Source: a virus
Virus record (IMG/VR): IMGVR_UViG_3300044617_002063
Coordinates: 1-25,201 of that record
Length of the DNA: 25,201 nt
Direction: 5' to 3' (one strand)
In this document: positions 254 to 18,812 of the stretch, piece after piece
How the letters are laid out: each line of letters starts with the position of its first letter
Numbering within the stretch: the first letter of the stretch is position 1
Position numbers and translations under genes: made by a program
The notes under the pieces: generated by a model
Databases searched by the model: none
Told to the model about the DNA's origin: nothing
What the model saw: the letters and a program-made list of their open reading frames with translations, nothing else

Positions 254-3200
254 CTATTGGCCCGATTCTTGTTAATTCAATACCGCAAAACGGTGCCATA
301 AAGTTTTGAGACATTACACCGTATTGAGAGTTACCATAGAACAGAGATATTGTACCTAAATCTGTTATTTTTATTAATGCGGTCTGTCCAGGAGCCAATA
401 ACCCTGCATGCACAACAGCTACAGGTAAATAAGAATCTGCAGTGTATGGATTACTACCCCAAATATCTTGTCCTGGTGGTAAGATATCTGTACCTGTAAT
501 ATTGAGTTCGAACGGCACTAACCCGCACGCAAGTACTGATGGTGTGACCGTGTTGGTTGGGGTAATGGAGGGAGTAACCGTGTTGGTTGGGGTAATAGAA
601 GGGGTAATAGAGGTGGTAGGTGTTACTGTTGGTGTTACTGTTGGTGTTACTGTGTTTGTCGGTGTTACAGTGGGTGTTACAGTGGGTGTCGGGGTAAGTG
701 TTGGTGTTGGGGATACACCTAAGGAAGGGGTGTTAGTTGGAGTTGTTGTTTGTGTTGGTGTATATGTAGGTGTATTTGTTAGTGTTGATGTAACAGAGGG
801 GGTAGGTGTTACTGTTGGGGTAGAGGTATTAGTTACAGTTGGGGTATTTGATGGTGTTACTGTGGGTGTTGTTGTGTTTGTCGGGCTTATCGTGATGGTT
901 GGGGTTAGAGTAGGAGTTATTGTGGGAGTAGGTGTGTTTGTGGGGGTAGGTGTACAAGTTGAAGTAGGGGTTAGAGTTTTAGTTGGTGTTAATGTTGGAG
1001 TTAATGTTCTTGTTGGAGTTGGCGTTGGAGTTGGCGGGCATATTGTTAGTTTACGTAAAACATTATTAAACTGATCGACAATAAATAGAGTTTGTTCGGT
1101 GTTGTGTACAATACCGACTGGTGCATTAAAACCTGCAACACTGCCTGCACCATCTCTATAACTATCCCCTCTCTCCATGCCCGCAAGAGTTGTAACCTCA
1201 AAAGGGTAAGTTGTTTTTATAACGCGAATAACATCATTGTTTGTATCGGTTATAAAAAGTTCAGTGGTATTATTTGTTGTAATACCTAAAGGCGCGTTAA
1301 ACTGCGCAATCAACCCTACACCATCAACATACCCGCTCGTGCCGGTTCCTGCAATGGTAGCTACCTGATATGGAGGAACGAGATTAACACGTCTTATCGC
1401 GTGATTTATCGAATCTGTAACATATAAATTACCATCTAAACTAGCTATAATACCTCTTGGAGATCCAAAAGAAGCTATATTACCTGGCCCGTCATTTGAG
1501 CCTTGTACACCGTTACCAGCGATGGTGGTAACAGTATTTGTAACTGGGTCAATTTTTCTTATACGATAATTGCTCTGATCTGATACAAAAATATCACCAA
1601 AAACATCAATGGTAATATTAATCGGGAAATTAAATTTAGCTGTTATACCGCTACCATCTGCAAAACCTGGGATACCAGGGACACCAGCTATAGTACTGAC
1701 AACCCCTGTCGAAACATCAATTCTACGTATACAGTGATTAAATGTATCACAAACAAATATACGCCCATTAGCATCTACAGCTAACCCGTGTGGTTTGTTG
1801 AACTTTGCAACAGATGTATCTCCATCAACATGTCCTTCTACGCCTTTTATACCCGCTATAGTGGTAACAGTGTTATTTATTATATTAAAACTTCTAATAG
1901 TATTACTGTTTGGTTCTGAAATATAAAACGTGGTTGATGTACCATATTTACCAGCTCCATACGGTCTATTGAATCTTGCACTACTACCGATACCGTCAAT
2001 AGTGTTTATGTTAGAAGCACTCCCTGCAACTGTAGTTACAAGTATACAAGGGGGTAGCGGGGTAGTCGGTGTTTGGGTAGGGGTAGGGGTAACGGTTGGA
2101 GTCGCATTTGGTAATAATTGTAAAGATGAAGACTTACAAGAAATTTCTGGCAACAAAGGTGGGTAGTAGTCACCATTGTTACCTGTAAACGGCCAAAAGA
2201 AAAACGGGCAGTCATCTGTGTAAGGAAATTCTGGGATTACCCGGGTACCTTCAAAAACTGGGTTATCACATATCGAATTTAATAGATCATTATCACCAAT
2301 AGAACGTAAAAAACTAGCTTGATCTCCAGCTTGTATAGCGTACACAACGTTGTCTTTTTTATTTCTTGCGCTTAACAAACGAGTTTTATATTGAGTTTGA
2401 ATTAGAGAAGGCGTATTTGCAGGTGTTTCGCTATTATTAGATGTTTGAAATATTGTGTTTTGTGGGTTTACTGGTCCAATTTCTATCGAAGCTCCGTTAG
2501 AAGTACCTGTACTACTACTATACACTACAACACTCGGGTAATAGTTATACACACTCTTTCCTGATCTCGTATAAACATATTTAAAATCATAGTTTCTTGG
2601 ATCTTTTGGATCATTAGGATACTTACCATTATATATAAAATATTTCGGATCAGGTACTTCCTCTCTTGTAACTAAAAACGTTTTATCGTCGTCTCCTGAA
2701 TTCCAAAGAATTCTTTCAATAGGAAAACTACCCGGTGTAGAATTTTTTGCGGTAAAAATAATTTCTAGTGGTGCTACACCATATATTTGCTCAGAAACGA
2801 CGCACAATCTCGCTTTAGGTGGTATTTCATGTACTTGTATAGAGTATGTTTTAATAACCGTTTCTTCAGTTACTTCCTCTACTTGCTCGTCATCGAAATC
2901 TGGTATTTCGCAAACATCTGGCGGTGGTTCGTATCCCCAAATTTTTTGATTCTCTCCACCACCCACTGTTTTTTCCCACTTTGTGGGGTTACCTCCGTAT
3001 TGTCGTAACTCAGACCATTTCCAATATTTACAATGTTTTTGTAAGCAATCTGATTCCCCGCCCCATGTTCTAGCATATTTACCGTTAAGCGCGCATGAAG
3101 CATCGTTCCATGTAATTCGGTTTGCTTCATCAACAGAATTACAAACTATTTTATCCCAATACCAAAGTCTGCCGTATTTACCTAAACACGGGTTACCGTC

Positions 3201-3557
3201 TTCTGTGTATGTTTGTTTTTTCTTTATTTTAAATCTCGTGAGTTTTACAGAATAAACTCCGGGCATAATATAGACATGCGTTATACAGTGCTCATCACAA
3301 AAAACTTTAACAACGTTTGTAGAATCATTATAGTAATCTCCAAAATCCCATTCATAGTATGTTGTAACTTTCGGATCCGTATGGTCAGTTTTTAAATTGG
3401 TGCAGAATAAAACAGCTAAGCTCGGAGCATATCCCTCTATAACACCTTCTGGGGTCGGTGAGACAGGTAGTGTATTACTATTATTAGGTATACCGAAATC
3501 CCATGAATAATGCTTTGGGACTGTTTTTCCTGATAAAATCGTAAACTCAGTTGTCAT
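1..3557 (-). CDS. Giant modular tail adhesin: PKD-like, NHL propeller, Thr-Pro stalks, LCCL-like (3' end off window)
   Basis: The frame is open from an ATG at 3557 to the left edge (at least 1185 codons), so the C-terminus is missing. Domains in order: PKD-like around residues 60-110 (YYEWDFGD, then [14 protein letters not shown]); a Cys/Trp-rich insert at about 120-214; a second PKD-like segment at about 260-350; a short Thr-Pro linker at about 483-500; six NHL blades at about 505-838, each with a V-T-T-I-A-G start, a D-G turn and an F-N-x-P-x-G-I strand; a Thr-Pro stalk at about 840-1005; an LCCL-like domain at about 1006-1100; then a second stalk. PKD, NHL and LCCL domains are binding or scaffold folds, and no catalytic motif is visible. 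I infer a virion-surface receptor-binding or fibre protein. It lies 40 bp after the 1309-aa stalk protein, on the same strand. There is no Shine-Dalgarno site; a weak CCTAAATA lies 21 nt upstream of the start. Confidence 0.85.
61..120 (-). repeat. Exact 30-bp tandem duplication inside the stalk
   Basis: Bases 61-90 and 91-120 are identical. The lag-30 match extends about 9 bases to the left and 6 to the right. The unit is ten codons, so it keeps the frame and the Thr-x-Thr-Pro register. Exact identity among degenerate neighbours suggests a recent slippage or recombination event. Confidence 0.9.
541..1035 (-). repeat. Thr-Pro stalk coding repeat (first stalk)
   Basis: About 165 codons of Thr-Pro-Thr-x repeats join the end of the NHL propeller (LRKLTIC, followed by PP and the repeat) to the LCCL-like domain. 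Synonymous codons are well mixed. Two local near-perfect copies remain: a 20-base match at lag 30 (547-566 against 577-596) and three consecutive 12-mers around 619-655. Confidence 0.9.
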
Positions 3558-3597: not shown

Positions 3598-6500
3598 TTA
3601 TTGATAGACGTTTCTTATAGTTTCTTTTAAAATAATATTAAGTTCTTTATTTTGTTTTAAGTTAAAAACTCCAAAATTAAAAAATTTATAATTTTTTGGT
3701 ACACGAAACGCGTTAAACGTGCAAGTTGCGTTATTTTCAGTTATTACGTCGTTAATAGGTGTTACATGTAAAGGTTGTTGGTTATATAGTACTTGTAAAC
3801 TATTAAATGGATCACTAATGTACTCAAAGATGTTAATATTGCTATTTTTAAAGGGTGTGATTGTTTGCATACCTTCCCATGTAAAACAGTCCTTACGAGC
3901 CCAAGTGAAAGTTACATCTTTAGCCTGTAGCGGAGAAACTGATGCGTATGAAAAATAATTATTTTGTCCCTGCAAAACAGGTAAAATACTGCTTTGTAAA
4001 AAACTATAGCTCATGTATAGATAACTACAATAAAAATTATATAATAAGTTACATTCAAAAAAACTTAAACCATCTTCGCTACTTACACACCATAAATTAT
4101 CGATGTTTAAAAGAATAGGTGAGGTTTCAAAATTATTACTTACAAGATGTCTACCGTAGGGGCTAATATCGTACCAAATTTTCACTCTACCTTCTGAACC
4201 ATTTAACCAACTTGTTAGTGTACCATTTTTAATTTCTAAAACTGTAAAATCTTTTTCTTCTAAATTATTTTTCCAAATTCGTATTGTTTTTGTTATTAAA
4301 TTTGCGTGCGTAAACGTGTAACAAGATTCTATATAAGGATATAAATTTTTTTGGTTTATTTCTTTTTTTACAGATATTACATTACTATAATTCTTTTTTG
4401 TTGTATAAAAATTTTTAGCTACAGAAACGCATCGTAGGATATTATTATCTCGTAAAATTAAACTATCTACATCGAGTTCTGATACATCAGTTCTTAAAAT
4501 TGTATTCCAACCATTTTCATAACCTTGCCATTCAAACTCTAAACTATCTAAACCCTCTTGTTTAAAATTATTTTCAAGAATTAGTTTATTATTTTCAAAT
4601 AAAAGGTTAAGGGGTTGTAGATGACTTTCAAAAATATTTGACGGTATTAAACAAGAACTAACTGCAAAAGTGTTTAAATTATCACACCCTACGGCAGTAA
4701 TCTTTAAATCTTGAAAATAGTTATTTTTATCAACAAAAAAATTAAAATTAGAAGTTAAATTATTGACTAGACAGGTTATTTCTTGGCACCCAAGCCATTT
4801 AAGTAAAATATTGACCCTCATGCCGCACTCTCTTTTATAGTAAGGTATTACATTAAATAATTGTACATAAGGAGTAGATATTATATTATATACTTCTGAA
4901 TATACGGTACACTCATTAAAAGAATTTTTAGCGCAAATTTTAATACGTATTTTTTTAGAAAAATCTTTAGGTAAAATATAGTAGTCGTTGTCTTTAACTT
5001 CTGTATCTCTCCATGTGTTACTACCTAAATCGTATATTTGCCATATCCGCTCTAATTTGTCTACGTTAAACCATTTACCTGATTGTATATGTAAACAGGT
5101 AGGTGAAACTTCAAAAATAGTATCTAAAACCGTGCATATTGGAAACTGAGACGGTTTATGTAATTGTTTCAAAAATAAGTTTTTAATATACTGTATTTCG
5201 TGTTTATCACATAACCAATTAAAAATTAAACATCCATAAAAGTTAAATTCTGAAAAAACAGACTTTGTGTCGTTAAGTATTGCTCCGAAAATATTATATT
5301 TTGTATCCGAAAAAGGTATATTAAAAGATTCTTTAACAAGTACTTCTAAATTATTAAGATAAAGACGTGTCTGTTTACTATCATTAACAAGCGTTAAAAC
5401 ATGTATGTCATCTGTCAAATTAATAATCGAGCTAAAATTTACCGCTTCGCTATTTGTATAGTAAAATCTTTTATCATTTTTATACCAGAAATTATATGAA
5501 TTTTCTATATTTTGTTTTGAAAAACCTATTATATTTTTATCTTTTGCTGTAAAAAAGAACATTGCTGTAGTGTTATTAAAATTAATAGAAGGGGTAATTT
5601 TCATGTACTGTCCGTTTTCATTAAAACCTACAGAAAAAAGTTTTTCATTTTCTATATAAATTTCTGGCGCGTGTTGCACCTGGGCGTTAAATTCAAACTT
5701 TTTATTTACACTTACCCATTTGCATAATTTTTGATTTTGTGCTACACCTTTTTCATTAAAATTATCAAACAGATACTCAGGTTGAGAAATAAACTGTATA
5801 TTTGCAATTTTTTTAAGATTTTTAATATCATAAAATTCACTCTCACACTCACATATCTTTTGAGAAAAACCATTTTCCGCTAACACAGTGAGTTTTATAT
5901 AACAGGGCCCTACCTTTTCGAGATCAAATGTTAAGCAATTATCATTAAGATGTTCAACCCAAACACTCGTATTTGTAGATTTTGTAAACCACTTTACACG
6001 TATATTAGGGAGCGGGTACCCTGTCCACGTACCTACATTTCCTTTTACGGTGAAAAACGACGTTCTTTGTAAAGAAGGGGGAGTTAAATTTTCTATTTCA
6101 ACTGTAGCTGTTTTGGTGGGGGTAAGAGTGTTAGTTGGAGTTATGCTTGGTGTGATAGTTGGTGTGTTTGTTGTTGTTGAGGTGGGCGTAAGAGTTGGAG
6201 TGGTTGTAGGGGTTGTGGTCGGTGTTGTGGTAACTGTGTTAGAGGGTGTTTGTGTTAGTGTATTAGTGGGGGTTAGTGTTTGAGTGGGGGTTAATGTTGA
6301 CGTGTTGCTAGGTGTTTGTGTGACAGTTGGAGTAACTGTTGAGGTAATAGTCGGTGTACAGGTCGGGGTTCTTGTAGGGGTAGGGGTTGGTTTATTTGTT
6401 CTAGAGGGGGTTTGAGAGTTAGTTAAAGTAACAGTTGAAGTGGTTGTTGGTGTTTGAGTGAGTGTGGGGGTTAGGGTATTTGTTGGGGTGGTTGTTAGGG

Positions 6501-7527
6501 TTGGGGTTGGGGTTGGGGTGCTTGTATTTGAAGGTGTATTGGAGGGTGTTTGAGTGTTCGTTTTTGTTACTGTTAAGGTCGGGGTATTTGAAGAGGTCGG
6601 GGTACAAGATTTTGTCGGTGTTCTTGTCGGTGTTTTTGTCGGTGTACAGGTTAAAGTGGTTGTTGGGGTACTTGTAGGTGTTTGAGTGATTGTTGGTGTT
6701 TGAGTTAACGTGGGGGTTAATGTAGTGGTTTGGGTGGGTGTTGGTGTAGTAGTACGTGTCTGTGTACGTGTTAAAGTGGGTGTTGAAGTAGGGGTTGTTG
6801 TATGAGTTGGTGTTTTTGATGGAGTTATCGTTACTGTTATGGTTGGTGTGTTTGTCGGCGTGGATGTTTGAGTTAAAGTGCGGGTAAGGGTGGGTGTTGG
6901 TGTAAGGGTGGTTGTTGGTGTAGGCGTAGGGGTCGGTGTTAGTGTTGAAGTCGGGGTAGTTGTTGGAGTAAGTGTAGGGGTGGAGGTAGGGGTTGTTGTT
7001 GGAGTATAAGTTGGTGTGGTTGTAGGGGTTGAGGTTTGGGTTGGGGTAATAGTTTGTGTAGGGGTAAAGGTAGGGGTATTTGTCTGAGTTAGAGTTGGCG
7101 TGGTTGTGGGGGTTTTAGTAACTTTTGGGGTTTTAGTGGGTGTACGGGTTTGAGTAACCGTAACGGTTTTAGTCGGGGTTAATGTTGGTGTGTTTGTGGG
7201 TGTGTTTGTTTGTGTTACTGTTTGACTGGGAGTGGGGGTTCTTGTGGGGGTGCAGGTGTAGGTAGGTGTTAATGTTTGAGTATTGGTCTGTGTTATAGTT
7301 GTTGTAGGTGTAGTTGTAGGTGTAGGCGCTACAACATTCACTTTTACAACGCGTCTTATCGAGCCGTTATTAGTTTTAAATTCAACTGGTATATCGTAAA
7401 CGCCAGGGATTTGCGGAGCCTGACTCTTAATTAAATTAATATAGGTGTCAGGGTTAGTGAGATCTACATTTTCAATGACTAGCCAGCTGTGATTAGAAGG
7501 TTCGTTAATTATTTTTTCAACAGACAT
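3598..7527 (-). CDS. Thr-Pro-stalked tail fibre/adhesin with C-terminal lectin-like regions (1309 aa)
   Basis: Residues 1-68 form a small N-terminal domain ending in a beta-rich segment ([17 protein letters not shown]), perhaps the virion attachment part. Residues 69 to about 472 are an almost pure Thr-x repeat with Pro at most alternate positions. After this come an Ig/PKD-like region at about 480-565 ([23 protein letters not shown]) and a ConA/LamG-like region at about 580-785 ([20 protein letters not shown]). Another lectin-like region starts near 1112 with [12 protein letters not shown], resembling the W-x-D-x-S-G-N-G-x-H motif of LamG-type domains. No enzyme signature was seen. It probably is a long flexible fibre with a distal sugar-binding head. 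The lectin assignments rest on short motifs and are tentative; the stalk is certain. The ATG at 7527 has no Shine-Dalgarno site and follows a run of 12 T. Confidence 0.85.
6112..7325 (-). repeat. Long Thr-Pro stalk coding repeat (about 404 codons)
   Basis: About 1.2 kb of degenerate 12-nt-period repeat encodes Thr at almost every second residue, mostly alternating with Pro and otherwise with T, N, Q, S, L, K, R or V. Unlike bases 61-120, I found no long exact tandem copy: the protein pattern is kept while codons differ, so the array looks old and selected at protein level. The plus strand is G/T-rich and includes a telomere-like G-run cluster. Confidence 0.92.
6498..6518 (+). other. Potential G-quadruplex (GGG then three TTGGGG units)
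   Basis: The plus strand has four G-tracts of 3, 4, 4 and 4 separated by TT, the same unit as the Tetrahymena telomere repeat. The opposite strand encodes Thr-Pro-Thr-Pro of the stalk. The plus strand is the transcription template for this gene. A looser five-tract cluster lies at 193-232. Confidence 0.6.
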
Positions 7528-7578: not shown

Positions 7579-8001
7579 TCAACAACAACCTTTTTCTCGC
7601 GCTACTTTAAGTGCTTGTAGCATGTCAAGATAATCTTTACTATTACTAAAATTTAAAGAAGATGAACTTTGCTCTTCTAAAGGAGTGTTGTTACTTTCAA
7701 TAAAAACAGGTATATCAAGCTGTTCTCCTACAGTTGTTGTAATTATAGACGGTAAAACTATATCTGGTAATGTGATTAATTCCTGTGGAACGTAAATTAT
7801 AACTCTTTCTAATCTATAGAGCTCGGTAACACTAATGCGTAGTTCGACAACATATTCTTTTAAATCGTTTGTTCTTCCAATAAAAGAATATATTAATTGT
7901 TTTTTTAAATTATCAAATGTGAGCACGGGTCGATCAACTTCTGTAAGCATTAAGCTAGAAAGTTGTGCAATGTACGTGTGTGCGCTTGTTAAATAGTTCA
8001 T
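7579..8001 (-). CDS. Small protein of the baseplate/fibre operon, function unknown (140 aa)
   Basis: I do not recognise this family. It is a 140-residue protein with an N-terminal half of mixed helix and strand character (ELRISVTELYRLERVIIYVP), a Ser/Asn-rich linker near residues 110-117, and a short C-terminal helix ending in Gly-Cys-Cys. There is no signal peptide or clear membrane segment. Its ATG overlaps the stop of the 1527-aa gene by 4 nt (ATGA), so translation is probably coupled. An AAGG about 10 nt before the ATG is one of the few Shine-Dalgarno-like sites in the window. Its place between a giant baseplate-operon protein and a fibre gene suggests an adaptor or assembly factor, by inference only. 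Confidence 0.75.
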   Translation of the reverse strand: MNYLTSAHTYIAQLSSLMLTEVDRPVLTFDNLKKQLIYSFIGRTNDLKEYVVELRISVTELYRLERVIIYVPQELITLPDIVLPSIITTTVGEQLDIPVFIESNNTPLEEQSSSSLNFSNSKDYLDMLQALKVAREKGCC

Positions 8002-11000
8002 ATTGGAAATACCTTACTAAATGTTTCATTTACAATATCAAGTTCGAATAAATGAGGTATTATTTGGTTACTTGAGAGCTCGCATATACTTAACAACACT
8101 ATTTTTTGTTCAGGAAAAAACCACGTGTCACCTACCTGTGCAACCGATACCCCGGTGAGAGAATTAAACTCTCTTCTTAACCCGATTGAAATTGGAGCTA
8201 TAAGTGAAATAATATGAGAGCTATCTACAAAACTATAGATGTTGTCTCTTTCATACTCATAATTAATTTTTTCTAAAAAGATAGCACTTGATGTCTCAAT
8301 ATAAAGAGTATCAAAAAACATATCTATTTTTCTTATACCACCACCGGTTAATTCAGAATACACTTCTAAACCTTTATAAGTATCAAAAACACCGCTTAGA
8401 GCTTTATATGCAGGTTGCACGACTTTTGATGTTTTTTGCACCCAAAGCTCTCCAGGTATATTTTTTTGTTCGTAAGGAGAAGAATTTTTTATATCTTTTA
8501 ATAAAGTGTACTGGTTACCGAAAATATCAGTAACCCAATTATATATTTGCTTATCGTTGCTTTGTAAGATATGTTCTTCAGCCCACACAGACGCGTTATA
8601 AATACCTGCTGCATTACCGGGTACATTTGTATTATCACCCCATTCTTTGCTTTCTCTGCCTGTCCAAGGGGTAAGTTTTTTATTTAAAATGTTAATACCT
8701 GTTTGCTTAGAAATTTTACTGTCTGTGGTGGTTTGATACGGTATAAATTTTTGATATTCTTTTGAAACTTTTCGATTTATATTTCCCGCTAAAACGTTTG
8801 AATTAAACGATTCTTTAAGCCATGTTGCATCTTCTGAAAGATCTTTATATGGTATAGAATTTTCTTTTTTAGAGTTACCTCTGCCGCCGAAAAAATAATC
8901 CGGTTTTACAAAATCTTCAATTATAGTTTCAGCTGTTGTATTTAACGTATAAGTAAAATTATTAGCATTATATACACTAACCCCTAAATTATTTGGTATA
9001 AAATACCCACCAGTATCTTTTTTTGTATAAATACTCTGTAGAGTTGGTATCGTCGGGGAAGTAGCGTTAAAACGATTTGCAAATTGATTCCACGGTCTTT
9101 CAACTTCAAGGGCTGGTGTTATATCTTTCTCTGTAATTGTGTATGTTTCAATTTCGGGTACTGCGGATATAGACCATGTAAATGGTGTTAAAGCTTTATA
9201 TAAAACTGTTACTGGGTGATTGTCGATGTAATTTGTAAGAAAAATTAAAGAAGATGATGAAAGTGGTTGTACGTTAAATAATGTACCTACATTGTCGGAT
9301 AATATATCTTTAAGGTTTGTTGGTTCGTAGGAAATTGATAGTTCTCGCCATTGTTTTTTATTAACTTCGGTTAATACGGTTATTGGTTGTTCCCAAATTA
9401 AAGAAGTGTTACTTTTTCTATCATATTCAACATAATACCCTGTATCAAAGTTTGATACAGAAAATAAAGGCTGTGTAACTATGTTATGTGTATCAAAAAC
9501 CCTATATGACGTGCTCCAATCTGGTATACTTCCAAACTGCGTATAGTTTTCGCGAGAAAAGGTAGCTTTACCCCAAAACGGTCTAGCGCCTGGGGTTGCT
9601 ACAGAGCGTTGATACGCGGTGCTGTAATCCCAACCAAAAAGATTTGTATTTAACACAAACCCTGGTTGAGGTGTATTTATGCCTGTAAGAGAAGGGGTAG
9701 TTTGAAAATACCCTACCGCGGTTATAGGGGGAATACCTGAAAACCGAACTATTGTAGCTTGCTCAGGCGTCCATGTATATGAGAACGCGGAAATATTAAA
9801 GTTAGAAGTAGTACCACCTGAATTCGGTACACGTGTAAAACTTTCTGGAGTACCTGTCTTTATATCAACTACTACACTGTATACACCTTCAATAAACGGT
9901 ATAAACGATAAAACATCTGTATTTTCATATTGAGTCACAGCCCCCGTAGGGTCAGTAACAAGCCATTTTGCGATACCTAAAACATCATCTGAATTTATAG
10001 GTGGTATACCATTACCGAGAGTTATACTCGCATTGGTAGGGTTTGTAAAATTAGTTTCTGGGTAACTTAAATAAATTTTTTGAGATGTAAGAGTGAGCGG
10101 GTCATCTGCTCTCGCGATAGATACATAATCATAATTTGCCCAAATGTTTCTTTTATTTTCAGTTATTGTGTTTTGAGATATTATAGTACCTGAAACCGCA
10201 GAAACAACAGAGCCGCTGCGTGCGTAAATTAAAAGATCTCTTTCTTTTAATACCATGTTTGACGGTTTATCGTCACTTAACCATGTACCATTATTTTGTT
10301 TAGTTGCTGAAACCCACACAAACTCTTTTGAATTTTTATTTGAGTATTTGTACCTTAAAGCTAAAGAAGGAATATTTACTCCTTCAGGTTTTGCGCGTAA
10401 ATAGATATACGCGCTTCCTTTTTTAAATCTTGGTATTCCGTTAAAAGTTTCAGTTACCCAGGCACCACTAAAGAAACCTTTTTTTAAATGAGTCTTATAC
10501 CAAGCAAAATTTAAACTTTGCTTATAATTTTTATTGAAACTATCTCTCCAGTTTGCAATATCAAGAGTACTAATATCATTAAAATCTGTACATTCAACAA
10601 TAATATCTACCTCGTTAAAAGATGAATCATCTATTGTGTTATAGTGATGCCCGTAAGGTGTAAAATTTACAGCGTGACACGAGCATTTATTGTACTCTAA
10701 AGAGCTTGCATCATTATATGGGCAATCTTTTTTATGAGGAATAAACTTAATAACGTTATTAATGTCAGTTAAATTGTCTCCTTGCCAAATAAATTTTACA
10801 CAAGTCCCCGAATCAGCAATAAATGATAAACATGGTTGGGGGGTTGTTATAATTTTACTATTTGTAAATAAAACATTTGTACCTGAAAGCCATGCACATT
10901 CTGTAGCGTTTTCTAAAGTATCTGTTGGGGAATTAATTTTATAAATTTTATCTGCGCCTTCGAAAACATTAGATACAATTTGATAATTTATATCAAGATT

Positions 11001-12581
11001 TTGTATAGAAACGGTATCGCAAACTTTAACATTTTTAGGGTAGTAATTAGGTAGTTCTTCTCCTTCAATTCGCTCGTACGGCCAATAAACAATTGTGTTT
11101 GTATTCGGTGCAATGGGTAGATCGGTTTTTGTGAATTTATAAAGCCAAGATATTTCAATATCACCTGCGTACGAAGATTCGTTCGGGAAGGGGGGAGTTT
11201 TTACTATCTTAATTTTATCAGCTTGGGGGTAAGAGGTACTTGCGTAAGCTTTTTGGTCAATGAGGGTTGTATCTTGTATATTAATAGAAGAAACAGTTAG
11301 AGTGGTGGAAGTGTAACCCCAATACTCTGTTTCTATTAATTTTTTAAACGTATCTTTTAGCGAAAAAAATTCTGGTAGATATTCATAGGAAGGACCTGTC
11401 CATTCTACCCCTACCCCAGATAGGCCGAACCCTGGGTACGGAAATTTAAATTCCGTTTTAGATTTTTTTTCAAATTTTGCTTTTAAAAGTTTATTTTCTG
11501 TTTCGTGTTTCTGAAAACTAAGCCATGCACCTTGAAGATTGTTTTTTGTTTGTATAAAAATAGTATCGCTTGTTGAAATATCTGTACCCGCAGTACCAAG
11601 CTCTTGCGCTGTTGTAGCGGTCAAAGGTATTGGAACTAACCGATTTGTAGGCGAAGCATAGGTTTTATAGAAATTGTTTGGCCAATTAAAAAGGTTATCC
11701 CCTGTATTTATTTGTATATCAAATTTTTCAATTTCTAGACTAGGTTTAGTGACCTCTCCTGTGTGTTTGTTATACCCTGAATATTTTTTAAGGTAGTTTT
11801 CTGCTAAATTTAAATTCGTTTCAGAGTCAAAATACGTGCCAGATAAATCCGGGGTGTTAATAAACACCCAACTATCGTTCAAAAGATCTATATTTTTAGT
11901 GTTAAAAAACTCTTTTGTTGTAGGGTCGTGTAGGTTAAAATACGCTGAAACCGGTAATGTGTTAGATTGATCTTGATACTCAAAGTCATCGTATACTTCT
12001 TCAACTTTAACTACTAAACTTTTTTTAATTTCGTCAAGCTCTGGTAAACATATAGAAATATTTCTTGGAATTTGAAGTGTATTAAATTCAGACTGTGTAT
12101 AACGATTTAAAAGATGTTCATGGATTTCAAGCTCGAAGCTAGTGTTAGTTCCACCTAAATTATACTGTAATTTTGTATTTTTAAGTTTTTTTCGTACATA
12201 ATTAAAATACAGCGCGATCTCTTTTAATTTTTTTGCAAAATAAGGTATAGTGTTTAAGATGTCATCGTTATTGCTAAAATTAATAACTTTATACCATCTA
12301 TCTTTTTCTTGATTAGAAAAAAATAATTGAAGTTCTTTTAATAGAGATAAATAATTGATTCGAGTTTGAAAATCTTGCTCATTATTATTATTGATTTGTT
12401 TTTTTACTGTATACCATTCGGTTAAGTATTGATTATAAAGATTATATTCTTGAGAAGGTATAATACCTGTTCTCGATTTTTTCCATTCTTGAAAAGAAAG
12501 CGGCTCTTCATAATCTAACATTTTATGCGCTAGACTAGGAGGTAAAGCTTGTTTAACTAAATGTTGCGTTATACTTTCCAC
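7998..12581 (-). CDS. Very large baseplate/tail structural protein (1527 aa), family not recognised
   Basis: The frame opens with GTG at 12581, 13 nt after the preceding stop, with GTTAAATA 10 nt upstream; the next ATG is about 20 codons in. The first 160 residues are helical and charged (likely coiled coil around 90-140). The rest is a long beta-rich chain full of Trp, Tyr, Asn and Thr, as in fibrous or baseplate proteins. A Cys/His cluster lies at about residues 617-635 (CPYNDASS, then NKCSCH) and could bind metal. In T4 the gene after gp6 is the large wedge protein gp7 (about 1030 aa). This gene lies two after the gp6-like one and could take a similar place, but I see no alignable motif. 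A receptor-binding or side-fibre role is equally possible. Confidence 0.8.
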   Translation of the reverse strand: MESITQHLVKQALPPSLAHKMLDYEEPLSFQEWKKSRTGIIPSQEYNLYNQYLTEWYTVKKQINNNNEQDFQTRINYLSLLKELQLFFSNQEKDRWYKVINFSNNDDILNTIPYFAKKLKEIALYFNYVRKKLKNTKLQYNLGGTNTSFELEIHEHLLNRYTQSEFNTLQIPRNISICLPELDEIKKSLVVKVEEVYDDFEYQDQSNTLPVSAYFNLHDPTTKEFFNTKNIDLLNDSWVFINTPDLSGTYFDSETNLNLAENYLKKYSGYNKHTGEVTKPSLEIEKFDIQINTGDNLFNWPNNFYKTYASPTNRLVPIPLTATTAQELGTAGTDISTSDTIFIQTKNNLQGAWLSFQKHETENKLLKAKFEKKSKTEFKFPYPGFGLSGVGVEWTGPSYEYLPEFFSLKDTFKKLIETEYWGYTSTTLTVSSINIQDTTLIDQKAYASTSYPQADKIKIVKTPPFPNESSYAGDIEISWLYKFTKTDLPIAPNTNTIVYWPYERIEGEELPNYYPKNVKVCDTVSIQNLDINYQIVSNVFEGADKIYKINSPTDTLENATECAWLSGTNVLFTNSKIITTPQPCLSFIADSGTCVKFIWQGDNLTDINNVIKFIPHKKDCPYNDASSLEYNKCSCHAVNFTPYGHHYNTIDDSSFNEVDIIVECTDFNDISTLDIANWRDSFNKNYKQSLNFAWYKTHLKKGFFSGAWVTETFNGIPRFKKGSAYIYLRAKPEGVNIPSLALRYKYSNKNSKEFVWVSATKQNNGTWLSDDKPSNMVLKERDLLIYARSGSVVSAVSGTIISQNTITENKRNIWANYDYVSIARADDPLTLTSQKIYLSYPETNFTNPTNASITLGNGIPPINSDDVLGIAKWLVTDPTGAVTQYENTDVLSFIPFIEGVYSVVVDIKTGTPESFTRVPNSGGTTSNFNISAFSYTWTPEQATIVRFSGIPPITAVGYFQTTPSLTGINTPQPGFVLNTNLFGWDYSTAYQRSVATPGARPFWGKATFSRENYTQFGSIPDWSTSYRVFDTHNIVTQPLFSVSNFDTGYYVEYDRKSNTSLIWEQPITVLTEVNKKQWRELSISYEPTNLKDILSDNVGTLFNVQPLSSSSLIFLTNYIDNHPVTVLYKALTPFTWSISAVPEIETYTITEKDITPALEVERPWNQFANRFNATSPTIPTLQSIYTKKDTGGYFIPNNLGVSVYNANNFTYTLNTTAETIIEDFVKPDYFFGGRGNSKKENSIPYKDLSEDATWLKESFNSNVLAGNINRKVSKEYQKFIPYQTTTDSKISKQTGINILNKKLTPWTGRESKEWGDNTNVPGNAAGIYNASVWAEEHILQSNDKQIYNWVTDIFGNQYTLLKDIKNSSPYEQKNIPGELWVQKTSKVVQPAYKALSGVFDTYKGLEVYSELTGGGIRKIDMFFDTLYIETSSAIFLEKINYEYERDNIYSFVDSSHIISLIAPISIGLRREFNSLTGVSVAQVGDTWFFPEQKIVLLSICELSSNQIIPHLFELDIVNETFSKVFPI

Positions 12582-12591
12582 TTTGTTATAT

Positions 12592-12599
12592 TATTTAAC
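12592..12599 (-). promoter_or_regulatory. Late-promoter-like octamer GTTAAATA before the 1527-aa gene
   Basis: It matches T4 late consensus TATAAATA at 6 of 8 positions and lies 10 nt before the GTG start. The spacing equals that of the better-matching sites in this window, which is the main reason to list it. Confidence 0.35.
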
Positions 12600-15500
12600 T
12601 ATTTTTTTTGAGGTTTTTAGTTAAAATATAGTTAAATACTTTTTCAACGAGCCCATCTTCCCCATACCAATCATTTTTGGACGAAATGTTAAACGAAAAA
12701 GTGGTTGAAGGGTTATTCCAGTCTATTATATTTTCAATGTAAACCGGTAATCCATTTTCTTCAATAATAGGGGTATAAGGTATATACTCGTAAAAAAGAT
12801 AATTGTTAATGACAGGTTGCGCGAAACCTACACCGTCAAAGTCTTTTAACGGGTACACGTTTAGATTGTTTTGTTTTGGCACGTTAACTAAAGTGTAAAT
12901 TGAACTGAATTTATTTTGCAAAAATATTTTTTGCCCTGCTGTAACCATATCAGTTTCTGTGTTTAAAACTTTTCCAACACTTTTTGATAAAACAGGTGCA
13001 TTATCTTGTATGCCTCTAATTCGTTCTTTAGATACTGAAAATAAATCTATGGCATTTTTTATGCTTGCTGGGAAACTCGTAAAAAATGTATCAATAGGTT
13101 GATCAACAGAAGCACATATAGACATTAATTTTTCAATACCGCATGTTTCAATATCTGCATGCATTGAAACGAAATTTGCAATCCTTTCGTAAATTTTTTC
13201 ACCAATATCTTCAAAATTACTCGGTAACGCGTCGCCCACAGTGGCAGGTAAAAACTTATCAAAAAGCCCTACGTTTTTACTAAAGTGTTCGGATAAAGCA
13301 AGTTCTTTATATTGCTCAGCCATACTAAACCCGTCGTTAATTTTTTTAAGATTAAAATTTTCATTAAAATTAAGTACAGAAAAATATTCAGATTTACCGC
13401 TAAAGTATTGTACATCACCGTATTTTTGTAACCACCGGTTACCTGTCCAATCTCCTGTAGCTTGAGCTGATTTAAATCTTTTATTTAAAATTTTAAGAGT
13501 AAACGCTGTTCGTATATCCGGCATATACCCAATTAATGCATCTGGTAAAACTTTGGCACGCCGTGATATATTATTTGTAACCGAGGTCGTAGAGGCTGAT
13601 AGCACATAAACATTGTTATATACTGAATCAATAACCCAAATACGGTTTGCTGCGTCAACAGCTAACCCGCCTAACTCTTCATCGTTTGAAGAGGAAGTGT
13701 AAAAATTTGAATCAGGTACTTTAATAGGTATAAATTGCCCGCTTGATGGAGCGCCATTTACATACCAAGATGATACCTGATATGTTACTGAATTAATAAA
13801 CCCTATATTTCTTGTTCCATGCGTAAACCAGACGTTAGCATCTCTATCTAAAGCTATAAAACTAGGTCTTCCAAAACCGGTAACAGTTGCTAATAACGTC
13901 CCATTTGTATCATATTTTTGAATTGTTCCGAACTCTTTACTCTCATGCATTGAGTTTGTGACCCATATTGAATTATCTGGTGTAACTGCAATACCTGTAG
14001 GTAGACTAGATGGTGGTAATGTTACACTTGTAATAAAATTACCATTCTCAGAATATTTAAATAAACCGCTGCATAAAGTTTGAGTGTATGATACCCAAAT
14101 ATTATTAAGTCTATCGGTTTCAACTACTGGTGGTTTAAAGATTTTTTCGTCTTGAACAATTGCATCTTTGTAAATAAAGGGTGGGGTTACAACAGCGCGC
14201 AGTTGTAAATCTTCATTAAATTTTAATACAGATACTGAATTATAGAGAGTTACCCAAAAATTAAAATGTCTATCTAAAGAAATGTAACTCGGTGTTAGGC
14301 AAAATTCACTATCGTAAAAAATAAATGTTTGTGTTGAAGGTGCAGCTGTTATTGGGTAATTTAATATATTAAGAGAGTCGTTAATTAATTTTAACTGAAT
14401 ACCACTGATTAAAACGCCGTCAGTTGTATATTTATAGATTGCGTCGGTTTCAGAATCTACAGCTATAAGGTCTTGCGTGACAGGTCTTATAGCTAAACCA
14501 AAAACCCCGGAAACACCGGAAAGATTGTAGTTAATAACGCTTGTTGTAGATAGATAGGGTACGTACGTCGTTAAAACTTGCCCGTCTTGTTGACCGTTTA
14601 ATGCTGCAATATTACCTTCAGAGCAAATATCATCTTCAGTTTGTTGGCCTGAACCTAAAATAGTTATACGGTTAAGAACATTATGCTCTGTATTTGAGAT
14701 CCAAGCGTGCTGAGGTATAGGAAAATCTAAAGGCACTAAAAACTTTTTTTGCTCAAGAGAGTTTTGTAGAGTGTAAGAGTAGCCTGTAATTCTCGTGTTA
14801 AGAGCGGTAACTAGAGGTGTTATTGACGTATGAACAATGCCGCCCGCAGGTAGACCGTTTTTGTCTAACGCTTGGAGACTTAGTATATTGTCTCGTGTTA
14901 CGTATTGATGTGGTTCAAGACCTTCTATCTCTAGTTTAATACTAAAACGATTACCGTGATCATTTGTTGAAGGGTAAGAAAACACCACACCGTAATTGCT
15001 ATCTGTTACGATTTTATTATTATGTATAGATAAAGTAACCGGTATTTCTGCGCCTACCCATTGAGTGGGGTGAACATCATCAATTAAATTGTTTGTTATT
15101 TTTAAAAATTCTGGTAATAACTTTTGAACTTGCCAAATTATAGATGCTTTTACCTGTTCTGTGTTAGCGTAACTTTCAATAGGTTTGCTTATTGTATCAA
15201 TATAATTCGTAAAACTGTTAGTTAATAAGGTAGCGTGTATAACTACTGAGCAATCTCCTTCTAAGGTATCTGTTCCTATATCATCAATATAAAAAAATTC
15301 TCCTTCTCCGTGCACTCCAACTTGTATATTGTTTTGAAATATAGGTGCAGTAGAAATAGTGATTGAAGTAATTGGGGTAAAATTTGTATCTGTAAATCTC
15401 CAAGTTGGTGTTAAATGTCTCCACTTCTCTTCAACAATTTGCAAAGGAATAGATCTTGAATTTGCAGAATGAAGCATTACTTTAATTGGTTGTTTAATTT

Positions 15501-15855
15501 CTGCAGATGTAACCCCAATTTTAAATGTTTTTTGGGTAGGTATACCAGGTAATGAAATTGTATCTGGTATTTGTAAAAACTGTATTTGATCTCTAACAGC
15601 GTAATCTATTTGCAGCTTTCTTTGTGCAACATTTACATTACCAAATACATCTACAACAGATAAAGTAACTGTAAAATTATTTGCGTACTTATATGTATGC
15701 GTAACAGCTCTTTCACCGTACGCAGTAGCGCCATCACCGAAATCCCAAAACCTATTACTTACAGGTGAAATGTGATTAGTTATATCTGTAAAGATAAAAT
15801 CTGTAGAATAAACGTAACCAGAGAAAGGAGCAATATCAAAATCTACATTTAGCAT
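12595..15855 (-). CDS. PKD plus beta-propeller baseplate-associated protein (1086 aa)
   Basis: Residues 1-82 are a clear PKD domain (RFWDFGDGATAYGE, HTYKYANNFTVTLSVVD). Residues of about 445-757 contain repeats of the NHL or virginiamycin-B-lyase-like propeller type: LPTGIAVTPDNSIWVTNS, PSFIALDRDANVWFTHG, LGGLAVDAANRIWVIDS. The lyase's catalytic residues cannot be judged by eye, and a structural or binding role is more likely in this setting. About 330 residues of unrecognised, partly helical sequence follow. The gene starts 4 nt after the gp6-like stop and is followed 13 nt later by the 1527-aa gene, so it belongs to the baseplate operon. It may be a wedge-attached receptor-binding subunit. 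I found no counterpart in the T4 gene order. Confidence 0.85.
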   Translation of the reverse strand: MLNVDFDIAPFSGYVYSTDFIFTDITNHISPVSNRFWDFGDGATAYGERAVTHTYKYANNFTVTLSVVDVFGNVNVAQRKLQIDYAVRDQIQFLQIPDTISLPGIPTQKTFKIGVTSAEIKQPIKVMLHSANSRSIPLQIVEEKWRHLTPTWRFTDTNFTPITSITISTAPIFQNNIQVGVHGEGEFFYIDDIGTDTLEGDCSVVIHATLLTNSFTNYIDTISKPIESYANTEQVKASIIWQVQKLLPEFLKITNNLIDDVHPTQWVGAEIPVTLSIHNNKIVTDSNYGVVFSYPSTNDHGNRFSIKLEIEGLEPHQYVTRDNILSLQALDKNGLPAGGIVHTSITPLVTALNTRITGYSYTLQNSLEQKKFLVPLDFPIPQHAWISNTEHNVLNRITILGSGQQTEDDICSEGNIAALNGQQDGQVLTTYVPYLSTTSVINYNLSGVSGVFGLAIRPVTQDLIAVDSETDAIYKYTTDGVLISGIQLKLINDSLNILNYPITAAPSTQTFIFYDSEFCLTPSYISLDRHFNFWVTLYNSVSVLKFNEDLQLRAVVTPPFIYKDAIVQDEKIFKPPVVETDRLNNIWVSYTQTLCSGLFKYSENGNFITSVTLPPSSLPTGIAVTPDNSIWVTNSMHESKEFGTIQKYDTNGTLLATVTGFGRPSFIALDRDANVWFTHGTRNIGFINSVTYQVSSWYVNGAPSSGQFIPIKVPDSNFYTSSSNDEELGGLAVDAANRIWVIDSVYNNVYVLSASTTSVTNNISRRAKVLPDALIGYMPDIRTAFTLKILNKRFKSAQATGDWTGNRWLQKYGDVQYFSGKSEYFSVLNFNENFNLKKINDGFSMAEQYKELALSEHFSKNVGLFDKFLPATVGDALPSNFEDIGEKIYERIANFVSMHADIETCGIEKLMSICASVDQPIDTFFTSFPASIKNAIDLFSVSKERIRGIQDNAPVLSKSVGKVLNTETDMVTAGQKIFLQNKFSSIYTLVNVPKQNNLNVYPLKDFDGVGFAQPVINNYLFYEYIPYTPIIEENGLPVYIENIIDWNNPSTTFSFNISSKNDWYGEDGLVEKVFNYILTKNLKKNS

Positions 15856-15859
15856 ACTA

Positions 15860-17677
15860 TTAATACTCTACAGATTCGTAAACACCGTATCTTGTTTGGA
15901 CTTTAATTAAATTTCTAATGTTGCTAGAATTGTAAAAAAACGGAAATTCAAAAAATCGAAGTGTAAAAGAATTTTGTGAAACGATGACATCATTATCTGG
16001 ATATTCTTGATTCCAAGTAACTAACGAGACACCTTCAACGTAAGACCCTGTATCATCTCTTACAGTTCGAACTTCCTCTACACCGTTTATATCATAAAGC
16101 TGTTGTGTGAGAGCTCTTGGGTCAATAATTTTTCCGAGAGAATTATTATACGGGTTGAAGTAATTAGTTATAATTGTAACCGCGTCGTTAATCATTGCTT
16201 CGTTACTTACTCGAGATAATGAAGCTTTTTGTAAAACTAAATAAAAGAACTCGTTATCTATAATATCAATAACTTCATCCGGTTCACCGATACCAAAACT
16301 AAACGCTTTATAAACAGGGTCTAAGAACGTTGTTTCAGTTGTATTCATTTTTGTGCTTAAAATACTCGAACTGATTAATTCTTTTTGAGCTGGGGTTAAA
16401 AAATTATAAGTTTCACCGGTCGCTGTTCTAGGTACTATGACTATATATCCATTATTAAAATTACAACTATCTGCGTATAAGATTTGATTAAACAAAGCTC
16501 GAGATGTAAGCTTCGGGTTTGTGACGCCTAATTCATAAAAATATTTTAAATAAGAAGATGTATAATCCCAGTTATTAACTACCTTAACGTCTATGATAAA
16601 ATTAGCAAAATTAGCTTTTATATACGCTTCATAATCTCCTGCAGTTACTAAACGGTACTGGCTTCTATATACTGCAGGTGCTAATTGTCTTATTTCTTCG
16701 GTTGTTTCTGCGTTTTTAGGGGTAGTCGAGCTTGCATTATTTTTAAAAAATAAATTTGTTAATTCAGTCGCCTCAAGATACAATAATTGTTCATTATTAA
16801 CATCATTTAAAATTTCATTATACTGTGGGGTGTTATATTTTCTTACTTCTTTTGTGAAAAAATCTTGCCCTACAACACCGTTTTCACCACTGCTTTCTAA
16901 ATAATATACTGCAACGACATCCCCTGTTTGAAGTTTTCTTCCATTAATATCATCCCCAAAACGAATTTCGTAACGCTTGTTGCTATTCAACCGAATTTCA
17001 TATTTTTTTGCAATACCGTTTTCTAAATATAAACTCGGTGTTGATTTATATGTTATCCATTTATTAATATCTGCTTCTTTTACGTATACGTGTATATTAT
17101 AATGATCTACTAATGATTCAGCTGTATTTATAATAAGTAATTCTCTACCCTCTCCGGTAGCTGTGTATTTAGGGTGTTCTTGAAATTGTCCTTGAAATAA
17201 GAGCTTAAGTCTTGACATTTCTGTTAACGACTCTGTAATATTGGGTGTTGTCTTTACAAAAGAAACATCCTCGTTAAAAGCAAACGGTATGCCGTTTAAA
17301 TTAACTGTGGTGTATCTCGGTATTGCGTAGATACCAGGTGCTAGATTTGAAGCTGATGCGTTAAAAGAAAGTGTAGAAGTTTGATAGCCTACAGGGTTGT
17401 AATCTAACAACTTTACAATGCGGTTCATATTCTCGTAAAGCTGAGCTTCTGTGAACATGGACTCTGTAGATGTTTTATTAAGGTAATATATTAATGTGTG
17501 ATAAGAATACGAAATAATATCAATGACTGTAGCTAAATTACTACCAATAAAATTTTGATCGGTGAAAACTTTTTGCTCATTTAACCTATTAACTATTAAC
17601 TGTCTTAAAGAAAGTGCATCAAAAGCAACATAACCATCTTGCGGTATCGCGTAAATATCGGGTTCTGTTATTTTCAT
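15860..17677 (-). CDS. gp6: Baseplate wedge protein, gp6/baseplate J-like (605 aa)
   Basis: The length is close to T4 gp6 (660 aa). The N-terminal third holds the family-typical helical segment (DIISYSYHTLIYYLNKTSTE, then ENMNRIVKLLDYNPVGYQTS). Residues of about 234-266 carry the baseplate J hallmark, YEIRFGDDINGRKLQTGDVV followed by Y-L-E-S-S-G-E-N-G-V-V-G. The C-terminal part has the LDPVYKAFSFG and RALTQQLYDINGVEEVRTVR segments seen in gp6-like proteins. In T4, gp6 forms the inner ring of the baseplate wedge as a dimer and holds it together during sheath contraction. The ATG overlaps the gp25-like stop by 4 nt (ATGA), which keeps the usual gp25-gp6 type pairing and implies translational coupling. 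Confidence 0.88.
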   Translation of the reverse strand: MKITEPDIYAIPQDGYVAFDALSLRQLIVNRLNEQKVFTDQNFIGSNLATVIDIISYSYHTLIYYLNKTSTESMFTEAQLYENMNRIVKLLDYNPVGYQTSTLSFNASASNLAPGIYAIPRYTTVNLNGIPFAFNEDVSFVKTTPNITESLTEMSRLKLLFQGQFQEHPKYTATGEGRELLIINTAESLVDHYNIHVYVKEADINKWITYKSTPSLYLENGIAKKYEIRLNSNKRYEIRFGDDINGRKLQTGDVVAVYYLESSGENGVVGQDFFTKEVRKYNTPQYNEILNDVNNEQLLYLEATELTNLFFKNNASSTTPKNAETTEEIRQLAPAVYRSQYRLVTAGDYEAYIKANFANFIIDVKVVNNWDYTSSYLKYFYELGVTNPKLTSRALFNQILYADSCNFNNGYIVIVPRTATGETYNFLTPAQKELISSSILSTKMNTTETTFLDPVYKAFSFGIGEPDEVIDIIDNEFFYLVLQKASLSRVSNEAMINDAVTIITNYFNPYNNSLGKIIDPRALTQQLYDINGVEEVRTVRDDTGSYVEGVSLVTWNQEYPDNDVIVSQNSFTLRFFEFPFFYNSSNIRNLIKVQTRYGVYESVEY

Positions 17678-18183
17678 AAATTATTTTTTTTATCTCCCGT
17701 TGTTAGTACTGTAAATATTTGATTTTGATTTTCAATATAAAAACCTGTATTTGTAGTTAAATTTAAAATCGGTACATCGTAGTAAACATCGAATTCGTAA
17801 GCGTTATCGTCTTCGTAAACTTTTGCTTTAACGTATCTTACTCGAACTCTAGGTTCATAGGCATCTATTGCAGCAACTATAGCGTCTCCAACAATTTGGG
17901 CATGTGTTTCTGTCGCTGGTTCGAATAATTGTTTGTGTAATTTTACACCATATTCAGGAAATAAAAATCTCTGTCCAGGACGAGTGTTAAATAAGTTTAA
18001 TAAAGAATTTACTACAGCTTTTCCATCTGCACTAACTTTAATGTCCTTACCGGGTACGTTTGTTGAAAACCCTGGGGTTTCGATATTGTTTAATGCCACG
18101 TCAAGTGTTAAATCTTTAAATACATGATTTTTTTCTGTATAAAGATCTGAAATAGTTTTTAAAGTTTTAATTTTAACAGGCAT
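17674..18183 (-). CDS. gp25: Baseplate wedge protein, gp25/GPW family (169 aa)
   Basis: The GPW_gp25 fold is seen in the central part: ADGKAVVNSLLNLFNTRPGQ, FLFPEYGVKLHKQLFEP, then an IVGDAIVAAIDAYEPRVRVR helix and strand. In T4, gp25 links the wedge to the hub and nucleates sheath polymerisation. The protein is slightly longer than T4 gp25 (132 aa). I chose the ATG at 18183 (MPVKIKT). An in-frame ATG at 18216 would add eleven residues (MFFSIIIYAKN) coded by the hairpin described next, which is atypical for the family. The gene's end overlaps the gp6-like start, and its upstream neighbour is transcribed divergently. Confidence 0.88.
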   Translation of the reverse strand: MPVKIKTLKTISDLYTEKNHVFKDLTLDVALNNIETPGFSTNVPGKDIKVSADGKAVVNSLLNLFNTRPGQRFLFPEYGVKLHKQLFEPATETHAQIVGDAIVAAIDAYEPRVRVRYVKAKVYEDDNAYEFDVYYDVPILNLTTNTGFYIENQNQIFTVLTTGDKKNNL

Positions 18184-18184
18184 A

Positions 18185-18212
18185 TTTTTAGCATAAATAA
18201 TTATGCTAAAAA
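18185..18212. promoter_or_regulatory. Perfect 12-bp inverted repeat with 4-nt loop between divergent genes
   Basis: The arms TTTTTAGCATAA and TTATGCTAAAAA flank ATAA. Each strand reads T-tract, stem, A-tract. The structure ends 2 nt before the gp25-like ATG. A 13-base half copy (TAGCATAAATAAT, 18189-18201) recurs at 18243-18255, next to the start of the divergent plus-strand gene. Each copy has a CATAAATA octamer on the plus strand. It could be an operator, a divergent late-promoter element or an RNA hairpin. It is too AT-rich to be a convincing terminator. Confidence 0.6.
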
Positions 18213-18245
18213 ACATGTTTAATAAGTGGTAAGTCTACAAAATAG

Positions 18246-18263: not shown

Positions 18264-18812
18264 ATGAAAAGCAATTTTAACACTGTATTTGAAAACGTAC
18301 TTGAGAGATACCAACAAGGTGGGTATGTAATAGGGGATAGGGTACGTTTTATAAAAGATTGCTTAAAACATGAATTCTTCTCAAATAAAGGTCAAAGTTT
18401 TATTGATCTCGTAAAAGGGTGTATGGCAACAGATTTTGATTTAAATCTTAGAATTTCAGCGGTAAAGAGTGTTTACCCAAATACCGCATTTAACTATAGA
18501 GGTGGTGCGGAATCCCCTGACTGTATTTACGTAGATATAATGGTAGAGTATGCTCCAGGTTTATGGAGAACACCAATGACAGTACCGATAGATGTTATTG
18601 AGAAATTAGAAGACGGTATTAATACATCTCCTATACCTGATAGTCTTCGTAGAAAATCTAAAGTACATGGTCCGGAAGAAATACAAGCAAAGAGTGAGGC
18701 AGAGTTTGATGTTAACCTTCAAAATAAAAACGTAGTACCTAAATTTTCAAGTAAAAAGAGAAATGACCAAAAACCTTCAAAAGAGTGGGAACCGCTCCCG
18801 ACAAGTAATTAA
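18264..18812 (+). CDS. Phage protein of unknown function (182 aa)
   Basis: I cannot name the family. Residues 1 to about 125 look globular: a helical start (FNTVFENVLERYQQGGYVIG), a basic segment (RVRFIKDCLKHEFF), and a beta-rich part (CIYVDIMVEYAPGLWRTPMT, followed by V-P-I-D-V-I-E). Residues 126-182 are Lys/Ser/Pro-rich and probably disordered. It stands alone on the plus strand between the gp25-like and tail-collar genes, both on the minus strand. Its stop overlaps the convergent tail-collar stop by 4 nt. The start is supported by CATAAATA 10 nt upstream; there is no Shine-Dalgarno site. It could be a small virion or assembly protein expressed late, by promoter inference only. Confidence 0.8.
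   Translation: MKSNFNTVFENVLERYQQGGYVIGDRVRFIKDCLKHEFFSNKGQSFIDLVKGCMATDFDLNLRISAVKSVYPNTAFNYRGGAESPDCIYVDIMVEYAPGLWRTPMTVPIDVIEKLEDGINTSPIPDSLRRKSKVHGPEEIQAKSEAEFDVNLQNKNVVPKFSSKKRNDQKPSKEWEPLPTSN

Follow-up and report, generated by a model that had tools for sequence, protein, structure and literature searches.

The window analysed here, the whole of the 25.2-kb virus record IMGVR_UViG_3300044617_002063 (positions 1–25,201), carries directly after a gp6-like baseplate wedge gene, in the place where T4 has gp7, an intact open reading frame (ORF) for a 1086-residue protein in which immunoglobulin (Ig)-like domains are followed by a beta-propeller and a C-terminal domain, D. In our judgement there is an even chance that this protein is a structural wedge subunit in the gp7 place of an uncultured group of T4-like myoviruses, with the propeller as a docking platform. 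The architecture and the operon position are conserved in the group, the propeller is cleanly absent from two clades, and it covaries, in one direction, with a segment of the protein encoded by the next gene (N). The gene starts 4 nucleotides (nt) after the gp6-like stop codon and is followed by the N gene after a gap of 13 nt. The wedge genes and the parts of the 1086-residue protein are as follows.

12595–15855, minus strand: wedge-slot protein, intact ORF with ATG start, 1086 residues
15860–17677, minus strand: gp6-like baseplate wedge protein (phrog_219, 3e-37)
17674–18216, minus strand: gp25-like baseplate wedge protein, upstream of the gp6-like gene (Pfam GPW_gp25, 1e-15)
15604–15828, minus strand: PKD (Ig-like) domain, residues ~10–84 (Pfam PKD_4; predicted local distance difference test (pLDDT) 86–92 in the model)
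14722–15591, minus strand: domain B, residues ~89–378, predicted as two Ig-like beta-sandwiches (conserved block; fold of the relative L146)
13438–14721, minus strand: predicted seven-bladed NHL/Vgb-like propeller, residues ~379–806 (Pfam, AlphaFold2 model, structure superposition)
12598–13437, minus strand: domain D, residues ~807–1086 (profile match 795–1082), helical then beta (alignments of relatives)

Domain architecture and predicted fold

Two PKD profiles exceeded their Pfam cut-offs (PKD_4 at residues 34–76, 34.3 versus 27 bits; PKD, 26.7 versus 23.5 bits), as did a single NHL repeat at residues 618–635 (24.0 versus 20 bits), whereas the match to Vgb_lyase stayed below its cut-off (29.8 versus 50 bits, 3.5e-7, profile positions 57–165 of 290). 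An earlier note, made from the sequence alone, had placed a protein with a PKD domain and a 'lyase/NHL-type' propeller at 12595–15855, in the gp7 position next to gp6; Pfam, PHROG and the model bear this out, and of the label the NHL half can be kept and the lyase half cannot. The structure prediction for which it had called was made with AlphaFold2 (45 sequences, mean pLDDT 74, predicted template modelling score 0.59), and the model contains a propeller. Its listed Foldseek matches were mostly NHL, Vgb and LRP-type propellers, together with other propellers and multi-domain chains, and in VIA-align the model superposed on the propellers listed over residues ~379–806 with Z of 26–31. Among them were the designed seven-bladed propeller 7bid (Z 28.8, root-mean-square deviation (rmsd) 2.3, 279 of 286 residues superposed), 1l0q (Z 31.4, 284 residues) and the Vgb lyase 2z2o (Z 27.4, rmsd 2.2, 269 residues, model range 379–757). 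Six blades are clear (451–487, 522–556, 574–612, 619–661, 665–699 and 728–779), while the first (383–431) is of low confidence because it overlaps residues with pLDDT below 50 (402–422); a second poorly predicted stretch lies at 439–446. According to the model the propeller closes as seven blades, six of them clear, over residues ~379–806, so that the extent of 440–760 given earlier was too short.

The C-terminal part, previously described as unrecognised, gave no credible Pfam or PHROG match, yet it is a conserved domain in the relatives, with a conserved motif around residues 885–930 (YERIANFV..HADIETC). In a second model, of the propeller-less relative L146 (B and D; 52 sequences, pLDDT 73), a pair of Ig-like sandwiches is predicted for domain B (Z 8.7 for the best VIA row, the others mostly tied Ig-type folds) and D obtains no resolved fold; in the window model confidence is low at residues 878–927. 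The fold search with the L146 model returned Ig-type and other folds for B only, and the lack of a wedge fold among the matches listed excludes nothing. A likeness of D to the endonuclease I-OnuI, seen in a first PDB profile search (0.0019), is put down to chance, as a larger D profile matched nothing at E up to 10.

Distribution of the family and of the propeller

Relatives were collected by a gp6 search (119 found, 80 loci kept) and by two D-domain searches (19 and 45 rows listed), whose contigs partly overlap each other and the gp6 set; loci fetched with D contain D by construction. Eight loci repeating a contig were dropped by hand before counting and identical sequences from different contigs were kept; among 132 gp6 loci there are 100 distinct gp6 sequences. 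An ORF with B or D was present in 122 loci, one per contig and the window included, and 120 of these also had a gp6 ORF; in 116 of the 120 no more than 20 nt separate the last gp6 codon from the start of the family ORF. Sixty-eight of the 80 gp6-fetched loci carry the family ORF downstream of gp6, and the other 12 end soon after gp6 (0–589 nt in 11 of them, 1035 nt in L028), four with the start of a PKD domain. Three loci (L015, L033 and L036) have the family gene as two neighbouring ORFs, with the break within B or directly behind it; these could be frameshifts or real two-chain forms.

The closest match in the viral model collection was A0A6J7XER1 (E 1.4e-63, 21% identity, 1177 residues), an uncharacterised 'PKD domain containing protein' of an uncultured Caudovirales phage, apparently a full-length relative, whose entry lists neither function nor place in the tail. 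Searches for close relatives with the full window protein found nothing in IMG/VR or the phage records. As tblastn of four family members against 50,697 phage records gave no match, or a short PKD match only, no isolate was found to work with. A low-threshold tblastn of the C-terminus gave two chance-level matches only, and a pattern scan of genome contigs with the D domain of L040 found no relative.

Both B and D lie in one ORF in 108 loci, with a propeller between them in 58 and without in 50 (49 and 34 by distinct ORF sequence). Where the propeller is missing, B abuts D, the median linker being −1 residues as against 382 with the propeller. Among the 83 non-identical ORFs with B and D, truncated ones included, the layouts were PKD-B-propeller-D (46), PKD-B-D (31), B-propeller-D (3) and B-D (3); judged by these layouts, the frame PKD-Ig-Ig-D is kept with or without the propeller. 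The earlier note envisaged a 'distinct subunit', but the propeller is one domain of a single wedge-slot protein, flanked on either side by conserved parts; lineages that lack it retain the remainder with next to no linker.

In a FastTree phylogeny of gp6 (102 rows, 74 distinct) the rows without a propeller fell into two clades, one of 13 and one of 31. Two changes of propeller state are required by the starred branches, and none of 500 shuffles gave as few. With midpoint rooting the tree is best read as showing a propeller that was probably present early and has been cleanly lost on at least two occasions; were the root placed within a propeller-less clade, the reading would be a gain. Several rows with the propeller have long branches, and one such pair (L073 and L049) was flagged.

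Domain D is interrupted or extended by extra sequence in 14 of the 108 loci, all of them propeller-bearing. In or after D, L109 (same contig as L074) has an RCC1-like match (PHROG 6e-11; Pfam 30.4 versus 150 bits) and L019 a BNR/Asp-box match below the cut-off (8.8e-6), and the extra D sequence of L064, L106 and L109 matches the Pro-Thr repeat family phrog_15511. The last ~100 residues of D are in a separate ORF in L064, L074 and L110. In L120 (3343–7113) a gp9-like tail-fibre-connector C-terminal domain is inserted in B at residues 346–456 (phrog_677, 1.1e-22). Thus the family protein does take up display modules, at sites away from its NHL propeller; none occurs in the window protein.

Covariation with the product of the next gene

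The N gene and the segment in question are located as follows.

7998–12581, minus strand: N protein, 1527 residues, of which residues ~23–217 are the conserved domain found in the next gene of most relatives
8562–8729, minus strand: N-protein segment, residues ~1285–1340, seen only in propeller loci (profile boundary 1360)

The N gene of the window had no credible database match. Its conserved N-terminal domain of ~200 residues recurs in the next gene of 84 of the 108 loci, in 82 of them within 60 nt of the family ORF; 15 of the 24 loci without an N match end within 243 nt, and nine have sequence onward. Complete N genes encode 935–1837 residues in 37 propeller loci and 330–879 residues in 37 propeller-less ones. 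Of the 43 N ORFs in propeller loci, 42 match a profile of N residues 1200–1360 as far as its last position; the exception (L016) is cut at 820 residues. The profile also matched 32 of the 41 N ORFs of propeller-less loci, but each of these matches ended short of position 90 of 154. When two propeller-less relatives are aligned pairwise, weak similarity returns at about residues 1331–1345 of N. As the profile stops early and the pairwise alignments resume there, the piece missing from these proteins can be placed at about residues 1285–1340. Where a next gene is present, 42 of 51 propeller loci contain this segment, as against none of the 42 propeller-less ones (0 of 41 propeller-less N ORFs); in the first propeller-less clade N lacks nearly its whole C-terminal part. 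The segment is a candidate for docking in the window's lineage and no general rule.

Proposed role

We infer that the protein is present in the virion as a wedge subunit. Domain D would anchor it beside gp6, the Ig domains and the propeller would sit at the periphery of the wedge, and the propeller would most likely serve as a platform on which peripheral or fibre-bearing protein parts dock. The best candidate partner in the window's lineage would be the 1527-residue N protein.

Several observations weigh against this assignment. The helical part of D has a pLDDT of only ~38–69 in both models, which makes a contact between D and gp6 a guess, and all matches between D and the gp7 core were non-significant, so that homology to gp7 is not shown by sequence. 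Eight propeller loci (L050, L062, L069, L071, L072, L073, L078 and L114) continue beyond the family gene without a recognisable N domain or segment, as does the propeller-less L119; a search for N and its segment in all ORFs of these nine loci found nothing significant, which weakens the docking proposal and equally the gp7-replacement reading taken up below. In such loci either N has diverged or the propeller has another partner. The covariation itself rests on two independent absences, and any other difference between the clades would covary too. Finally, the RCC1-like, BNR-like and Pro-Thr modules in or after D of some relatives would fit a role in peripheral display. As a separate observation, the next gene in L050, L062, L069, L071, L072 and L073, in which no N domain is recognisable, encodes 1533–1806 residues.

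Relation to gp7

A gp7-core profile grown from phiM12 matched 95 ORFs, including T4 gp7 (646–762) and giant proteins of cyanophages. A 40-row version recovers T4 (6.5e-34) and phiM12 (3.7e-61), both of which are rows of the profile. Run against the window and 14 contigs of the group (123–230 kb, perhaps incomplete), this version found nothing credible, the sole match in these 15 records (0.0126) running across stop codons. The Pfam families Gp7_helical, Gp7_5th and Gp7_6th (the last two being domains V and VI) were not among the matches of the window protein at E up to 1; the same method found domains V and VI in T4 gp7. In hhalign, T4 gp7 (as a 5-row gp7 alignment) gave no significant match to D, B, PKD or the propeller, nor did a cyanophage gp7-like giant protein match D significantly. 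When the profiles of D and the gp7 core were compared, three runs gave P values of 0.039, 0.091 and 0.065, with hhalign probabilities of at most 1.3%. The controls scored alike (reversed D, 0.20; gp6, 0.039; reversed gp6, 0.094; the N domain, 0.033 and 0.026), and D is therefore not singled out as a gp7 core. That the window protein has no recognisable T4 gp7 sequence, as the earlier note implied, is confirmed by these comparisons, and because the helical core that defines gp7 is not recognisable we do not call it gp7 on sequence grounds; it probably works like gp7, as a third wedge chain with peripheral parts. On the other hand, the statement that a propeller on the wedge is 'not part of the T4 plan' has not been established: T4 gp7 has an fn3-like N-terminus (E 0.0019, below the cut-off) and, at 212–219, an Asp-box-like motif, a motif typical of propellers.

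The protein could nevertheless be a true, extremely diverged gp7, with D as the helical core that bundles with two gp6 chains and with the Ig domains and propeller corresponding to the N-terminal domains of T4 gp7. The gene slot is identical to that of gp7. Moreover, the three comparisons of D with the gp7 core pair the same motifs (YEKIANF..N.aDIDTCN with ..nll...DIDnT, and R.vDi.SI with KR.l.khi.DfY.SKG), and the core lies near the N-terminus of the post-gp6 gene in pf16, phiM12 and others, implying that domain order is plastic. With hhalign probabilities so low, controls equal to D and nothing credible in the 15 records of the group, we regard such an origin as unlikely, though it keeps an appreciable chance.

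A further possibility is that gp7 was replaced in this uncultured T4-like group by an unrelated two-protein module, made up of the Ig-propeller-D scaffold and N, which in the window's part of the group would dock through residues ~1285–1340 of N. We hold this to be doubtful.

Conservation of the propeller

Mean identity to the window protein over 44 relatives was 33.8% for PKD, 28.2% for B (the Ig part), 31.6% for the propeller and 36.2% for D, and the propeller was at least as conserved as B in 40 of the 44. Receptor-binding proteins are expected to diverge faster than the scaffold. The figures thus speak against the propeller as a wedge-displayed module for binding receptors or glycans, for which fast variation would be expected; its absence, moreover, follows two clades, while a receptor binder would be expected to be swapped often. 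There are precedents for such a module: wedge proteins can bind hosts, as described for the carbohydrate-binding modules of Vp4 Gp119 in the available part of that report (PMC11406892), and propellers occur elsewhere as lectin-like fibre tips, for example in the RcGTA fibre foot (PMC7296036, available part); other propeller types, too, are present in or after D of some relatives. On balance we find a displayed binding module improbable.

In the alignment of 49 propellers 33 columns reach at least 75% conservation, and not one of them is conserved as His, Glu or Cys. Those with a charged residue are Asp 467, 471, 528, 581, 670 and 734 and Lys 545 and 600, and since Asp 528, 581, 670 and 734 each lie six residues before a blade Trp they are repeat positions. 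Virginiamycin B lyase has a catalytic His with an acidic partner. H270 is the residue named in the title of the Vgb lyase structure 2z2p. At the 50% level, and counting against the view that the propeller is no enzyme, stand His592, found in 30 of 49 propellers but replaced by Gln in the window protein, and two residues that the window protein shares, His679 (26 of 49) and Glu570 (27 of 49). Judged from these residues, enzyme activity of the propeller is unlikely. A virginiamycin-B-lyase-like or other lyase or lactonase function has a very small chance indeed: Vgb_lyase is the longest Pfam match of the propeller, 2z2o superposes well and His679 recurs, but the match is below cut-off and ends at profile position 165 of 290, the window protein has Gln in place of the commonest His, and the superposition is about as good for many propellers with other functions. 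The receptor-binding or sugar-processing role raised in the earlier note thus finds no support in a propeller that varies no faster than the Ig part and has no His, Glu or Cys at the 75% level. The propeller looks like an old structural part, rather than an enzyme or a fast-changing receptor binder.

Neighbouring genes

Near the wedge genes the window encodes a clamp-loader protein (phrog_168, 1.3e-70), a dUTPase and a tail-collar protein. Downstream and in the same direction, at 3–3557 (minus strand, open at the record end), lies the gene for a second large protein, which combines an LCCL domain (1.2e-5) and long Pro-Thr repeats with strong NHL repeats (3.2e-14) and matches PKD weakly, below the cut-off; it is likely a second propeller protein near the tail operon. 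A 1309-residue protein encoded at 3598–7527 (minus strand) has ~400 residues of Pro-Thr repeats near its N-terminus and matches phrog_15511 (1.4e-8), the family that is also matched by D inserts of relatives. Between the minus-strand gp25 gene and the collar-protein gene there is an ORF of 182 residues at 18264–18812 (plus strand), with no Pfam or PHROG match at E 0.001.

Comparison with known systems and significance

The window protein resembles T4 gp7 (PDB 5hx2, 5iv5) in being encoded directly after gp6, in its length of about 1000 residues, in its many domains and in the weak fn3-like N-terminus of the latter; it differs in that no domain gives a significant profile match and that an NHL-type propeller lies between B and D. 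The available parts of the reports on other contractile systems describe (gp6)2-gp7 as a conserved wedge module and XM1 gp17 as the gp7 counterpart, with flexible parts for tail-spike binding (PMC10457771), a gp7 domain of T4 as the binding site of gp9 (PMC3004832), and the gp7-like part of AlgoCIS Alg12 as lateral, in contact with the tail fibres and a hotspot of re-engineering (PMC8894135). Like the window protein as placed here, the XM1 and AlgoCIS examples are a third wedge chain or part beside gp6-like chains, with fibre- or spike-binding parts; however, XM1 gp17 is far smaller (242 residues), the Alg12 part is fused to a gp6-like part, and what is available of these accounts mentions a propeller for neither. 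By analogy the window case fits this pattern of gp7-like chains that bear fibre or spike binders, with another domain and no detectable gp7 sequence.

Extra domains in a wedge protein are likewise described, in the available part of its report, for Vp4 Gp119 (wedge protein 3), which decorates cells and whose carbohydrate-binding modules are absent from its homologues Gp177 and A511 Gp105 (PMC11406892); those modules have shown cell binding and belong to another wedge component, and no propeller is mentioned in that part. The Vgb lyase/NHL-repeat propellers (2z2o, 6d69) have the same fold as residues ~379–806, whereas the window propeller is embedded in a phage wedge-slot protein and lacks conserved His, Glu or Cys at the 75% level. 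A jumbo phage is reported to have Kelch-type propeller proteins, of which one is in the virion and none is called a wedge protein in the available part of that paper (PMC5259590). A search of one open literature library for gp7, wedge or baseplate together with propeller, NHL or PKD yielded, in the text available, no description of the protein analysed here.

The way in which a contractile tail senses its host and fires depends in part on the wedge. The present group keeps gp6 and gp25, has no recognisable gp7 in the records searched, and carries in the gp7 place a conserved Ig-propeller-D protein for which a candidate partner segment can now be named. If gp7 was indeed replaced, the gp6/gp25 wedge would have accepted a non-homologous partner, and the propeller would be an exchangeable socket.

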